This document shows positions 4,137-12,840 of a stretch of DNA of 34,061 bases, in pieces. The number at the start of each line of letters is the position of its first letter. The stretch's first letter is position 1. The notes beneath the pieces are model-generated. The model saw nothing but the letters and a program-made list of their open reading frames with translations, was not told where the DNA came from and made no database searches. Position numbers and translations under genes: made by a program. The DNA comes from Synechococcus sp. SP2 MAG. Lineage in GTDB: Bacteria; Cyanobacteriota; Cyanobacteriia; PCC-6307; Cyanobiaceae. The stretch lies in the NCBI GenBank assembly GCA_030756895.1, contig JAVBIX010000055.1, positions 1-34,061 of the forward strand, given 5' to 3'.

Positions 4137-5171
4137 ATGCAATCTTATGGGAAGCCATCAGTCAGTTATGACTGGTGGGCAGGCAATTCAGGCGTCGCCA
4201 GTCGCTCTGGTTCTTTCATTGCTGCTCATGCGGCACATGCAGGCCTAATTATGTTTTGGGCTGGAGCGTTCACTCTGTTTGAGTTAGCTCGTTATGACAC
4301 GTTGCTTCCAATGGGCGAACAGGGATTGATCCTGCTTCCTCATATGGCTTCCTTGGGCTTAGGCCTTGGTGCAGAAGCAACTATCATCAATACAGAGCCT
4401 TACATTGCTATAGCTGCATTTCACTTGGTCTCCTCTGCTGTATTAGGAGCTGCTGGCATTTGGCACACTCTCAGAGCTCCAAAGGATTTATCCAAGGCGG
4501 AAGGACGTGCGGAGAAATTTCATTTCGAATGGGATGATCCCAAGAAACTCACTTTTATTCTTGGACACCATCTCATTTTTCTAGGGCTAGGTGCAATTGC
4601 CTTTGTTGAATGGGCACAGCACCACGGAATCTATGACACTGCCATTGGCGCTGTTCGGAAGGTTGAGCCCAACATTGACCTGGGAATGGTATGGGGCTAT
4701 CAGACTAATTTTCTTTCCATCAGCAGTTTAGAAGATGTGATGGGGGGCCATGCTGTATTAGCATTTATACTAACTATTGGTGGGGTTTGGCATATTATTA
4801 CGAGCCCATTTGGACCCTTCAAGAAAGTACTTATTTACTCTGGAGAAGCAATCCTTTCCTATTCACTTGCAGGAATCGCACTAATGGGTTTTGTTACAAG
4901 TGTATGGTGTGCACAGAATACTATGATTTATCCAGTTGAATTCTACGGAGAGGCTCTAAAACTCAATTTTGCTTTCTCCCCCTATTTTAGTGACACAGTA
5001 GCTGTCTTAAACAATGGGCATACTGCAAGAGCCTGGCTTGCGAACACACACTTTTACTTGGCCTTTTTCTTCCTGCAGGGCCACTTCTGGCATGCATTGA
5101 GGAGTATGGGTTTTGATTTCAAGAGTGTCTCAAAAGCTTTGGACTCAATGGATACAATGAAGGTAAATTAA
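4137..5171 (+). CDS. isiA: IsiA/Pcb-type chlorophyll-binding antenna protein
   Basis: 344 residues, full length for the IsiA/Pcb family, which is related to PsbC (CP43) but lacks its large lumenal loop. The N-terminus MQSYGKPSVSYDWWAGNSG is typical of IsiA. Six membrane spans are evident, with His residues placed as chlorophyll ligands (HAAHAG near 30, ILGHHLIFLG near 143, GGHAVLAF near 204, GVWHI near 217, FFLQGHFWHALRSMGF near 313-327). Family members form rings around photosystem I or serve as antenna and chlorophyll store, classically under iron limitation. It stands alone; no flavodoxin gene follows. An independent terminator closes it. I saw no convincing Fur box upstream. IsiA versus Pcb cannot be settled without a tree. 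Confidence 0.9.
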   Translation: MQSYGKPSVSYDWWAGNSGVASRSGSFIAAHAAHAGLIMFWAGAFTLFELARYDTLLPMGEQGLILLPHMASLGLGLGAEATIINTEPYIAIAAFHLVSSAVLGAAGIWHTLRAPKDLSKAEGRAEKFHFEWDDPKKLTFILGHHLIFLGLGAIAFVEWAQHHGIYDTAIGAVRKVEPNIDLGMVWGYQTNFLSISSLEDVMGGHAVLAFILTIGGVWHIITSPFGPFKKVLIYSGEAILSYSLAGIALMGFVTSVWCAQNTMIYPVEFYGEALKLNFAFSPYFSDTVAVLNNGHTARAWLANTHFYLAFFFLQGHFWHALRSMGFDFKSVSKALDSMDTMKVN

Positions 5172-5427: not shown

Positions 5428-5865
5428 CTACATAGGCTTGATATACAACCAGTTCTCCCTCAGATCCCTATCTCTCCGTTGGAAGAGCGACGTTTCAGTC
5501 ATCACATTGCGTTGGCCACCTGCCCCAAATGTTGCCTCAAACGTCACCGTGCCTTCAAGATCACCTACTCCGCCAGCCGCCACGGCAATGATCTTCAGTC
5601 CCAACCAACGCGCCTCGCGACAATTCTTACGCAACTCTTTGCGGCGTTGCAGCAAAGGTGTCGAGGAATCCGGATGAGTTGCGATTAAGTAATTAACTTC
5701 AGCAAACACAAAGGCGGAATATCGCGAACGCATCAACTGCTCAGCGGTAGCCGCCCTTTGCTTCTCGCGATGCAGAGGCTCGCAACAGCTTTCGTAGCTC
5801 ATTCCGCTCGAGCAAGGGCATGGTTCACCGCTTTTTGATGATCCGAAACCAGCAGCCCTTGCCAT
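5428..5865 (-). CDS. YchJ-family SEC-C motif protein
   Basis: 145 residues when started at the ATG 5865-5863, which overlaps the stop of the DUF3326 gene by one base (TAATG); a longer frame exists upstream but is overlapping sequence. Residues 13-28 form a SEC-C zinc-binding motif (GEPCPCSSGMSYESCC; Cys16, 18, 27, 28). The UPF0225/YchJ core follows (AEQLMRSRYSAFV, then a beta-rich domain ending ENWLYIKPM). E. coli YchJ has a second SEC-C motif at its C-terminus, which is absent here. The fold is NTF2-like; the function is not established. It is the last gene of the five-gene operon. Confidence 0.85.
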   Translation of the reverse strand: MARAAGFGSSKSGEPCPCSSGMSYESCCEPLHREKQRAATAEQLMRSRYSAFVFAEVNYLIATHPDSSTPLLQRRKELRKNCREARWLGLKIIAVAAGGVGDLEGTVTFEATFGAGGQRNVMTETSLFQRRDRDLRENWLYIKPM

Positions 5866-6935
5866 TACTCCAGCTCCTTCAAAGCAGATAAGGGGCGCAT
5901 CAATGCAGACAAAGCAACACCTTCGCGTAAGGCCAGCACCCATCCAGCCGCCTCGGCATAAGAGCCTGCTTTCAACACCTCAGATCCCATGCCAAGGACT
6001 GTTGACGTGACCTGCAACACGGACGGATTGGCCACACTGATCACAGGAACCCTGCGCTCCAGGCAAGCAAGCACCGCTTCTCCACCCAGAGCACCCTCTG
6101 GGACAACCAACACTCCCAAATCATCAGCCACAAGATCACTTGGATTGGCAGCTGAACTCTGGACCAACGCTGGTGCCTGACTTAAGCCCACCAACACGCA
6201 CGCCAAAAAGGTGTAACCCAACTCTTCCCCTGCCGCACGAGGATCCAGTTGCGGATCCAGCGGCAACGCCGATAAGGCCGGTGCATGGGCGCAGGGAATC
6301 TGCAAGTGGCGCACTAGTAAATGGCTGATCACGGCTTCGGCGCCCGCCAAGGCATCCACACCGCTGCCATGGCGGTAAGCCTCCAAAGCCTCACTTCCCT
6401 GATCGTCGGGGAAGCGAGCAACCACCGCAATCGCTGTTGCACCATTGGCTTTTAAACGTTCACCTGCCCTCAGCAAGGCATCGGGGCGCTCAAGGGTGCC
6501 CCAACTCGCACCGCTTTGGCCCAATCCCAAGTGAACCCCTAAGGGCACATCGCTACACACCACCGGACCGATTTCAATGCCCAGCGTTGCCCTGCAACCA
6601 TCGGCCACCTGCAGATGGCGTTGACGCAGCTCCGGTTCGATACCGGCATCCAAAAGCAAACCAATCCGCTGCTGACGCACAGATCGCAGCGCCCAATCGC
6701 CGGCAGCAAAGCGGTCGAGAGCGTACCCCTCCACGTAGCGAATGCGATGGTCTTTCCAATACAAGGAAGCCCCATTCATCACGTTGGGATGGGTGATCAA
6801 ACACCCGGAGGCCGCAGCCAAAAGCCTTGCACTCGGGAGCGCATCGCCGGCATACCCGCCGATCGCACAACCAATCCCCGTTGGGACCACCATCAACGTG
6901 GGCAGGGGAGATCCCAAAGCCAGCCCCTCCCTCAC
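5865..6935 (-). CDS. DUF3326 family protein
   Basis: 356 residues, starting at GTG 6935 whose GTGA overlaps the stop of the 62-aa gene; an internal ATG at residue 15 (MVVPTGIGCAIGGYAGD) is an alternative. The sequence is glycine- and alanine-rich, with repeated hydrophobic beta-strand/turn patterns (VVPTGIG, LVVPEGALGGEAVLACLERR) and a conserved-looking THPNVMNGA segment near 50. It matches my memory of DUF3326, found in cyanobacteria and plant plastids and of unknown function. It is translationally coupled to genes on both sides, so the product probably acts with the ferredoxin, the 62-aa protein or YchJ. Confidence 0.75.
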   Translation of the reverse strand: MREGLALGSPLPTLMVVPTGIGCAIGGYAGDALPSARLLAAASGCLITHPNVMNGASLYWKDHRIRYVEGYALDRFAAGDWALRSVRQQRIGLLLDAGIEPELRQRHLQVADGCRATLGIEIGPVVCSDVPLGVHLGLGQSGASWGTLERPDALLRAGERLKANGATAIAVVARFPDDQGSEALEAYRHGSGVDALAGAEAVISHLLVRHLQIPCAHAPALSALPLDPQLDPRAAGEELGYTFLACVLVGLSQAPALVQSSAANPSDLVADDLGVLVVPEGALGGEAVLACLERRVPVISVANPSVLQVTSTVLGMGSEVLKAGSYAEAAGWVLALREGVALSALMRPLSALKELE

Positions 6936-7120
6936 TCGATCAACACCGCTTCAATCTGCAAGACAGCACCACAATCCTGCGCTGAATCATTGACAGCGGT
7001 AATGGCCCAGCGCAGGGGGTCACCATGAATGCTCAATTGATCTTTCACCCAACTACGCAAATCAGACGCCTTTAGATCTTTCGGCCAAGGCAATGTCAAC
7101 GTTTTCGACGTCAACCTCAT
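6932..7120 (-). CDS. 62-aa conserved-type small protein
   Basis: 62 residues, MRLTSKTLTLPWPKDLKASD onward, soluble and predicted alpha/beta, ending IEAVLIE. The ATG overlaps the ferredoxin stop (ATGA) and its stop overlaps the DUF3326 start (GTGA); this coupling on both sides fixes the start despite a longer open frame upstream. No family is recognised. One Cys (DCGAVLQ) is near the C-terminus. It may be a small partner or chaperone of the neighbouring ferredoxin or DUF3326 protein (inference). Confidence 0.7.
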   Translation of the reverse strand: MRLTSKTLTLPWPKDLKASDLRSWVKDQLSIHGDPLRWAITAVNDSAQDCGAVLQIEAVLIE

Positions 7121-7485
7121 TTCTGGTACTGACCAAACTGAGCCTCGTAGAGCGCATCCTCTTGGCCCGCTAGAAGCCGAAGATCGGAACAAGGAAGCGC
7201 AACGCACAGCAAGGTAAAACCATCAGCGCGTAGGTCTTCTCTTACCCCCATCGCATCAGATTGCTCTACCGATCCAGTTTTAAGACGGGCTGCACAGGTG
7301 GTACAAACCCCAGAGCAACAAGAACTGGGAAGCATCACCCCTGCCGCTTCTGCAGCAGCCAAAACGGTTTGATCAGAACGACAGGGAAAGCTGTGTTCAA
7401 CAGCATCCACTTCGATGCTGACGTTGTATGTGACAGCAGCACTGGCGAGATCGCTCATCCTGAAAGAGATGCCTTGGTCATTCAT
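7117..7485 (-). CDS. plant-type [2Fe-2S] ferredoxin with C-terminal extension
   Basis: 122 residues (113 if started at the internal ATG 7458). Using the shorter numbering, Cys47, Cys52, Cys55 and Cys85 give the C-x4-C-x2-C...x29-C ligand pattern of plant-type ferredoxins, in PSSCCSGVCTTCAARLKTG and LLCVALP. An extra Cys48 sits beside the first ligand. After the last ligand the protein continues about 28 residues, ending EAQFGQYQK, longer than photosynthetic PetF and reminiscent of the FdC-type ferredoxins with extended C-termini. It probably donates electrons to a specific partner rather than serving as the main PSI acceptor (inference). Its stop overlaps the next start. Confidence 0.88.
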   Translation of the reverse strand: MNDQGISFRMSDLASAAVTYNVSIEVDAVEHSFPCRSDQTVLAAAEAAGVMLPSSCCSGVCTTCAARLKTGSVEQSDAMGVREDLRADGFTLLCVALPCSDLRLLAGQEDALYEAQFGQYQK

Positions 7486-7504
7486 CTTCTCAGGGCAACA
7501 GGCC

Positions 7505-8215
7505 TTATGACGACAGATCTGAGCAGGGAGTCCATTGCGAGGGATGGGGCGCCAGGTATTCCGGTGGGTTGCCCTGCTCAGGAGCCGTGATCACAAAATC
7601 GAAACTGATCGAGCAGCGGAGCGATTCAGGATCACCATTCGCCAACACGCTGTGATCAAGCCTGGAAGGAAACAGCACAAGCAAGCCAACCTCAGGAGCC
7701 AGATCCCAACTTTCAGAATTAAAGGGGTGATCAGAAGCGATTGGCCCGCCATGACCTGCGACGAGTCCTGGCACGAGCTCATTGCTTTGATGAGGGGCAT
7801 GCACACGAAGCACACCCTCCTCCCCTGAACCATCTCCGGTGAGATAGAGCACCGCACTGAGGTGGGCATTGGGATGGTGATGGCGGCCAACGAGCTGATC
7901 CCAATCGCTCAGCACAGGCCAGCAGCGCTGGAGATGCAAAGCCACTTGGCTGCGATCAAAGCCAACGGCCTCCAGGTAACCCGTGGCCTGCTCTGACACC
8001 TTGTTCACCAAGGCAGCAAATTCCGCTTGGTGATGCAACTGCCAAACACCGTTGATATCACCAGTCCAAGCGCATCCCTCACTGGGGTTGCTAACAGCCT
8101 CACCCCTAAGAGCCAGCAGCGTCTGTAGATGCCCAGCAAGATCAAGCGGATCGATGACCAGCTTGGTTGTCGCCACAACCGTTGGGAAAAGCTGGAGAAG
8201 AGTAAAAGTCATCAC
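7505..8215 (-). CDS. putative 2OG-Fe(II) oxygenase (TIGR02466-like)
   Basis: 236 residues. The core shows the putative 2OG-Fe(II) oxygenase pattern: a His-rich iron site at 112-118 (HHHPNAH) followed by LSAVLYL, a strand LLVLFPSRLDHSV with His188 as the distal iron ligand, and Arg200 in LRCSISFDF as the likely 2-oxoglutarate-binding residue. The family is a small cupin-like dioxygenase; the substrate is unknown. The start could be either of two adjacent ATG codons. It lies just after the atp-operon terminator and 19 bases before the ferredoxin gene, so it is likely the first gene of the ferredoxin/DUF3326 operon. Confidence 0.75.
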   Translation of the reverse strand: MMTFTLLQLFPTVVATTKLVIDPLDLAGHLQTLLALRGEAVSNPSEGCAWTGDINGVWQLHHQAEFAALVNKVSEQATGYLEAVGFDRSQVALHLQRCWPVLSDWDQLVGRHHHPNAHLSAVLYLTGDGSGEEGVLRVHAPHQSNELVPGLVAGHGGPIASDHPFNSESWDLAPEVGLLVLFPSRLDHSVLANGDPESLRCSISFDFVITAPEQGNPPEYLAPHPSQWTPCSDLSS

Positions 8216-8221
8216 TCCATT

Positions 8222-8252
8222 AAAAAAGCCGGCCCTCAGGACCGGCTTTTTT
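8222..8252 (-). terminator. terminator of the ATP synthase operon
   Basis: 11-bp inverted repeat (aaaaaagccgg and ccggctttttt) with a 9-base loop, 17 bases beyond the gamma-subunit stop. Because it is flanked by A and T runs it can work on either strand, but only the minus-strand atp operon reads into it here. Confidence 0.85.
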
Positions 8253-8268
8253 AATGATCAGCAGGGAG

Positions 8269-12438: not shown

Positions 12439-12840
<402 letters not shown>

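Follow-up and report, generated by a model that had tools for sequence, protein, structure and literature searches.

DUF3326 and its 62-residue neighbour in Cyanobacteriota: gene order, distribution and a possible two-part enzyme

Contig JAVBIX010000055.1 of the Synechococcus sp. SP2 assembly GCA_030756895.1, analysed here over its full 34,061 nucleotides (nt) and referred to as the window, carries five closely packed minus-strand genes. They encode a putative 2-oxoglutarate (2OG)-Fe(II) oxygenase, a plant-type [2Fe-2S] ferredoxin, a protein of 62 amino acids (aa), a protein of the DUF3326 family and a YchJ-like protein (Table 1). The explanation towards which we lean, with a modest degree of confidence, is that the conserved unit of this group is a two-part enzyme, made of DUF3326 and the 62-aa protein, and that oxygenic lineages added the ferredoxin to it as an accessory.

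Gene order at the locus and across cyanobacteria

The open reading frames (ORFs) lie exactly as the initial annotation had described them. On the minus strand, the ferredoxin and 62-aa genes overlap by 4 nt (ATGA), the 62-aa and DUF3326 genes by another 4 nt (GTGA) and the DUF3326 and YchJ genes by 1 nt (TAATG), and a gap of 19 nt separates the end of the oxygenase gene from the ferredoxin start. In Pfam, the DUF3326 protein scores 494.5 bits against PF11805 (cut-off 25) over profile positions 2-336 of 337, the ferredoxin 57.6 bits against PF00111 Fer2 (cut-off 21), the YchJ-like protein 85.3 bits against PF17775 YchJ_M-like (cut-off 22.7) and the oxygenase 63.8 bits against PF13759 2OG-FeII_Oxy_5 (cut-off 27). 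The 62-aa protein gives no Pfam match at an E value (E) of 1 or below and no NCBIfam match at E <= 0.1.

A profile search of genome contigs for DUF3326 found at least 80 loci; the matches listed, 80 named loci (L052-L131), all carry cyanobacterial titles, and one of them, L094, comes from a non-photosynthetic relative (Gastranaerophilales). Counting as neighbours the genes on the same strand and at most 3 kb upstream of DUF3326, we found both the ferredoxin and the 62-aa gene at 67 of the 80, in the order ferredoxin, 62-aa gene, DUF3326. The scattering in most cyanobacteria against which the initial annotation had set its proposal was not seen. The remaining loci have the 62-aa gene alone (4), the ferredoxin alone (3) or neither (6), and a broader model of the 62-aa family detects the gene in 75 of the 80. 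In another set, of 30 photosynthetic-class loci taken with 1.5-kb flanks, 21 have the ferredoxin and 25 the 62-aa gene.

The genes that flank this trio differ between picocyanobacteria and the rest. Of 20 picocyanobacterial loci, all have the 62-aa gene together with DUF3326, 19 have atpG and 17 the ferredoxin, while the oxygenase and YchJ each occur in 13, against two and one, respectively, of the 80 named loci. At non-picocyanobacterial loci, a gene for an Rce1-like membrane protease lies downstream of DUF3326 on the same strand (42/45, assigned by clustering, with Pfam on one). That the order recurs in 67 of 80 loci despite these differing flanks argues for an association beyond chance. YchJ and the 2OG oxygenase are local to picocyanobacteria, passengers in the operon of that group, and the suggestion that they belong to the conserved unit is weakened.

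The association itself is not new. A 2014 review (PMC4284462) describes a 'cluster d' of fed3, a 'DUF650' gene and DUF3326, so the link between ferredoxin and DUF3326 was already known; by our own count, its table marks 26 of the 69 strains as having the cluster and one more as having a d' variant, with marine Synechococcus, Prochlorococcus and Synechococcus elongatus PCC 7942 among those marked. The label of the middle gene is not borne out here: a Pfam search with 21 members of the 62-aa family lists no DUF650 match at E <= 5, and the label may refer to another gene.

At the upstream boundary of the group, a strong terminator-like hairpin lies between atpG and the oxygenase gene (fold of 8212-8262 on the minus strand, -28.8 kcal/mol, z -6.15). 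A pattern scan for promoters and terminators found nothing beyond shuffled sequences, and the same scan misses this hairpin. Relatives of the oxygenase occur in 18 phage records, all titled Synechococcus, Prochlorococcus or cyanophage. Convergent with the DUF3326 operon is a gene for a CP43-like antenna protein, identified by eye, which is probably isiA given the IsrR antisense RNA opposite it (Rfam, 67.6 bits, gathering cut-off 52). An ATPC RNA motif (Rfam, 73.3 bits) lies within the ATP synthase operon.

Table 1. Features of the window discussed in the text.
Feature	Position	Strand	Assignment and remarks
2OG-Fe(II) oxygenase, putative	7505-8212	minus	TIGR02466 / PF13759; local member
Plant-type [2Fe-2S] ferredoxin	7117-7485	minus	PF00111; Fed3-type by gene context; proposed accessory part
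62-aa protein	6932-7120	minus	Unannotated family, beta-alpha-beta-beta; proposed small subunit, core part
DUF3326 protein, 356 aa, GTG start	5865-6935	minus	PF11805; proposed catalytic subunit, core part
YchJ-like protein, SEC-C and NTF2-like domains	5428-5865	minus	PF17775; local member, picocyanobacteria
Terminator-like hairpin	8214-8257	minus	RNA fold; boundary of atp operon and gene group
CP43-like antenna gene	4137-5171	plus	Probably isiA
IsrR antisense RNA	4530-4701	minus	Rfam
ATPC RNA motif	12736-12826	minus	Rfam

Distribution and separability of the three parts

Of 386 sampled Cyanobacteriota genomes, 381 have DUF3326. The remaining five all belong to classes other than that of the window, and every sampled photosynthetic-class genome is positive. 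PsaA/PsaB were found in none of 22 picked DUF3326 carriers of the other classes and in all five photosynthetic controls, which argues that DUF3326 is not a photosynthesis gene. One non-photosynthetic class, apparently Sericytochromatia, has the gene in 17 of 18 collected genomes, and most remaining non-photosynthetic carriers appear to be gut or environmental relatives, Gastranaerophilales as in L094. In a tree of 39 DUF3326 sequences, the 16 photosynthetic orthologues form one clade (support 100/100). Synechococcus elongatus alone matches among 14 control genomes, and a search for relatives gave genomes of Cyanobacteriota only among the matches listed. Neither DUF3326 nor its paralogue has a plasmid match at E 1e-5. 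A gene list from potato names a DUF3326 gene. The literature searched gives no function for the family, in agreement with the initial annotation.

Three side observations concern the non-photosynthetic carriers and their neighbours. In the non-photosynthetic genus g109, G052, G084 and G132 are without DUF3326 while G309 carries it; further losses in the former three could point to the pathway. In two non-photosynthetic genomes, a gene for a phosphoribosyltransferase-domain protein, probably hpt, lies directly 5' of DUF3326 on the same strand (L137:7438-7980 and L140:9089-9697). A link to NAD was considered from an NAD(P)HX repair enzyme (L134) and from NadE/NadD-like genes in Prochlorococcus (by eye), and was set aside as post hoc and drawn from too few independent cases.

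The 62-aa protein accompanies DUF3326 outside the photosynthetic class as well. When a model built from photosynthetic sequences was run against 20 non-photosynthetic loci translated in six frames (4,937 segments), only four matches appeared at E <= 10 (E 0.0007-0.045), and all four lie directly upstream of DUF3326. Once these four had been added to the model, the next best matches were the N-termini of DUF3326 itself in L142 and L154 (E 0.011 and 0.019; 6,782 segments), while the N-terminus of L147 reached E 7.5 only. A profile of the fused N-termini, built from L142 and L154 together with L147 and L150 (the latter two added by eye, and three of the four hand-trimmed), aligns with the 62-aa profile in hhalign at 94.8% probability and E 5.5e-8, a score not reached in 100 column shuffles. 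Altogether, 15 loci of one non-photosynthetic class were examined and 8 have the domain, in two cases recognised by eye or profile only. Fusion in one lineage and separate adjacency elsewhere is a classical sign of cooperating proteins. The adjacency of the 62-aa and DUF3326 genes in two classes, together with the fusion in one family, suggests that the two proteins work together.

The ferredoxin behaves differently. We searched 25 genomes with DUF3326 (14 of the photosynthetic class and 11 non-photosynthetic) with a model of DUF3326-linked ferredoxins and a limit of E 1e-12. A Fed3-type ferredoxin of at least 166 bits is present in 9 of the 14 photosynthetic-class genomes, which had been picked partly because no ferredoxin was seen beside DUF3326. 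In the other five (G264, G141, G165, G223 and G147), no ferredoxin scores above 107 bits, a level at which other ferredoxin types score; that is, the Fed3 type is missing genome-wide and DUF3326 is kept. None of the 11 non-photosynthetic genomes reaches the limit. Four of the five Fed3-less genomes have the 62-aa gene beside DUF3326 (L199, L203 and L208 in G264, G141 and G165, and L020 in G147), and in G223 DUF3326 is the sole part known. Loss of the Fed3 type with the core kept indicates that the ferredoxin can be lost or replaced, and is accessory. In the table of PMC4284462, fed3 is likewise lacking in 7 of the 12 Prochlorococcus and in the two Gloeobacter. Published accounts of fed3 (slr1828) disagree: PMC4284462 gives it as essential, whereas PMC8887894 describes its full deletion, the mutant growing like a pfor mutant under photomixotrophic conditions.

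The initial annotation had called the ferredoxin of the window an extended [2Fe-2S] protein. The [2Fe-2S] type is borne out by the Fer2 match and by the cluster cysteines C56, C61, C64 and C94, invariant in nine aligned rows; the protein falls below the cut-off of the NCBIfam subfamily TIGR02008 (74.7 against 81.15 bits). The extension is slight. Solved plant-type ferredoxins, about 97 aa long, align with residues 19-113 of its 122 aa, its relatives read from likely starts have 105-107 aa, and an alternative in-frame ATG at 7458 would give a protein of 113 aa.

Predicted folds, conserved residues and paralogues

An AlphaFold 2 (AF2) model of DUF3326 alternates strands and helices in an alpha/beta arrangement, with a predicted local distance difference test (pLDDT) score of 87.4 and a predicted template modelling (pTM) score of 0.87. 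Solved structures include no sequence relative of DUF3326 (best E 0.94), and Foldseek finds no match to the model at E 0.001 or better. From the order of secondary structure and the fold matches described below, the protein appears to be two-lobed, with its conserved residues in the cleft. The model of the 62-aa protein is a beta-alpha-beta-beta unit (pLDDT 91.9), and G33, R37 and W38 are invariant in a 21-sequence alignment of its family. These 21 members have scattered sub-threshold Pfam matches only (best E 0.023), and the family has no sequence relative among solved structures (best E 1.3, to a splicing factor).

Residue conservation in DUF3326 was read from 103 rows (80 photosynthetic, 17 non-photosynthetic and 6 paralogue). 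N51, Y67, E200, H217 and E237 show no variation, and E69, H205, N303 and Y326 very little. T19 and D31 are constant as well, although the non-photosynthetic and paralogue rows were chosen by a PTG...GG[YF]AGD motif that favours both; D31 is also invariant in a separate set of 19 rows, and T19 is not. The motif drops L043, which has Ala at T19, and L039, L048 and L051 were left out of the residue count. Cysteines vary by group. C215 occurs in 97% of the photosynthetic rows, 41% of the non-photosynthetic rows and none of the six paralogue rows, and C246 in 39%, 82% and 33%, respectively.

A second, divergent DUF3326 is present in six cyanobacteria re-examined for more than one match; other two-match genomes look like split genes and stand outside this set. 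A stricter scan for paralogues of the B type found them in 3 of 388 genomes. In the 39-sequence tree the six form a clade of their own, apart from the housekeeping orthologues (support 96/91). At all five fetched loci of B-type paralogues (L258, L259, L270, L271 and L273), the next same-strand ORF encodes a pyridoxal phosphate (PLP) enzyme; one has an Orn/Lys/Arg decarboxylase major domain in Pfam (E 3.3e-22), and the other four were judged by eye. Methyltransferases, a cupin, a Rieske oxygenase and a B12-binding radical-SAM protein lie near one or another of these paralogues, and the loci are probably biosynthetic clusters of specialised metabolism. The paralogues also carry substitutions at positions that are invariant in the other groups (N54 to T in 4/6, D96 to E in 5/6 and D194 to N in 6/6), which would fit an altered use of substrate.

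Possible role of the unit and competing explanations

A two-part enzyme with an accessory ferredoxin would bring together the observed distribution, adjacency, fusion, separability and conserved residues. DUF3326 would be a two-lobed alpha/beta enzyme whose interlobe cleft binds a small polar metabolite through residues such as D31, E69, E200, H205, H217 and E237. The beta-alpha-beta-beta subunit of 62 aa would dock at the N-terminal side of DUF3326, which is the site of fusion elsewhere. Because the paralogues stand beside an Orn/Lys/Arg-decarboxylase-like PLP enzyme, an amino-acid-derived substrate is suggested, and the pair would act on a small, probably amino-acid-related metabolite. With less assurance, in photosynthetic cells the Fed3-type ferredoxin probably passes electrons from photosystem I to the DUF3326 enzyme or to an adjoining step, and another ferredoxin can take its place.

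Several points weigh against this explanation. The complex, its activity as an enzyme, the class of its substrate and the donation of electrons are all inferred. Five of the 80 named loci have no detectable 62-aa gene even with the broader model. Among other non-photosynthetic families the domain was found at none of 11 loci, and DUF3326 may act alone in the non-photosynthetic carriers where it was not found. An N-terminal extension in two of these 11 loci, L145 and L149, was tried as a divergent 62-aa domain and is not supported as such, 41 of 100 shuffles scoring as high. For the paralogues a fused 62-aa domain is suggested, with weak support: their N-termini (B and A types) match the 62-aa profile at 13% and 19% probability (E 0.0022 and 0.0013, with 0/100 shuffles as high), and a single-profile hidden Markov model gives no significant match there. 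The neighbourhoods of non-photosynthetic loci reveal no shared pathway, with no family in more than two among the 53 neighbours scanned, a scan that left out 15 of 68 listed neighbours and three of the 20 loci, L132, L142 and L147, in which DUF3326 was missed by the gene caller or the motif. The fold matches to DUF3326 from a second aligner are weak and generic, of Rossmann type with Z up to 9.7 over about 107 residues. In addition, C215, so frequent in the photosynthetic rows, would fit a redox role specific to that lineage.

The initial annotation saw in the coupling of ferredoxin and DUF3326 a conserved redox or metal-dependent pathway. The pair is conserved, both at the 67 named loci and in PMC4284462, but a pathway centred on the ferredoxin is weakened, because DUF3326 is kept without PsaA/PsaB and the Fed3 type is often missing. 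In a strict form, where the three proteins make one obligate redox pathway and DUF3326 is a ferredoxin-dependent enzyme, we find this idea possible yet doubtful. It would account well for the kept gene order and the published cluster d, for a Fed3-type gene confined to the photosynthetic class among the 25 genomes searched, for C215 and for the growth of the slr1828 deletion mutant (PMC8887894) or the essentiality reported elsewhere (PMC4284462). It is harder to square with the absence of the Fed3 type from 5 of 14 photosynthetic-class and 11 of 11 non-photosynthetic genomes at the limit used, or with the paralogues, next to which no ferredoxin was recognised by eye, though a Rieske oxygenase is encoded in one of the clusters. 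That the genes form a stable operon in which translational coupling and shared regulation alone connect them, with no direct link in function, is an improbable alternative. YchJ, the oxygenase and the Rce1-like protease (42/45) do show that genes join locally, but shared regulation leaves unexplained why a second class has the 62-aa/DUF3326 pair too, and why the two fuse there.

The shape of the 62-aa protein also raised the idea of a dodecin-like flavin binder, with the unit as a flavin-dependent enzyme and the ferredoxin as its reductant, which we regard as very unlikely. Like dodecin (PF07311), the protein has a beta-alpha-beta-beta order, a similar size and an invariant Trp on strand 2. 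Dodecin is among its weak Foldseek matches (TMq about 0.54), and the hhalign score of 15.5-16.1 exceeds all 37 decoy windows (maximum 13.1), with 16.1 above 59 of 60 column shuffles. The corresponding probability is, however, 2-3%, the best of the 60 shuffles reached 17.7 (the second 15.4), the Trp is out of register in the profile alignment and other beta-alpha-beta-beta folds rank higher in the fold search. PF07311 is not among the families for the 21 members of the 62-aa family, itself without a Pfam match, and it has no match in 117 Cyanobacteriota genomes; a profile relation is not established. A role of DUF3326 in photosynthesis or plastid function proper has even less to commend it. DUF3326 is in every sampled photosynthetic-class genome and in the potato gene list, but its presence in most sampled non-photosynthetic-class genomes, 22 carriers without PsaA/PsaB among them, largely refutes this.

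The two-part enzyme, if correct, has practical consequences. A gene that nearly all sampled members of its phylum keep, photosynthetic or not, that is named in at least one plant and that has no known function suggests a core reaction yet to be recognised. The split between core (62-aa protein and DUF3326) and accessory (ferredoxin) favours co-expressing the core parts, and directs the search to chemistry that non-photosynthetic Cyanobacteriota have too, not to a phenotype of photosynthesis alone. A second route to the reaction, via a possible natural product, leads through the paralogue clusters. Taken further, and here we are speculating, the pair might be a new enzyme class, older in Cyanobacteriota than oxygenic photosynthesis, which a dedicated, replaceable ferredoxin later connected to photosystem I and which was passed to plants, with an ancient paralogue recruited beside a decarboxylase-like PLP enzyme for amino-acid-derived natural products.

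Comparison with known systems

Over residues of about 59-260, the DUF3326 model weakly resembles the Asp/Glu racemase-like fold, lumazine synthase and the Rossmann lobes of LacI type. Allantoin racemase and arylmalonate decarboxylase score Z 8.4-8.7 over 102-114 residues, tied with unrelated folds and within what common arrangements give, and an Asp_Glu_race match appears below threshold in 1 of 19 DUF3326 members (14.7 bits, cut-off 31). The Asp/Glu racemase superfamily uses a pair of catalytic cysteines. DUF3326 differs in having no cysteine that is conserved in all groups.

The ferredoxin of the window is, like Fed3/slr1828 of Synechocystis PCC 6803, of the plant [2Fe-2S] type, and by its shared DUF3326 gene context alone it would be the slr1828 orthologue. 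The closest comparison is with the published cluster d. Section 4 of PMC4284462 is silent on non-photosynthetic genomes and on fusion, both of which enter the present account. The window has the same order of ferredoxin, middle gene and DUF3326 as that cluster, and differs from it in also carrying the oxygenase and YchJ.

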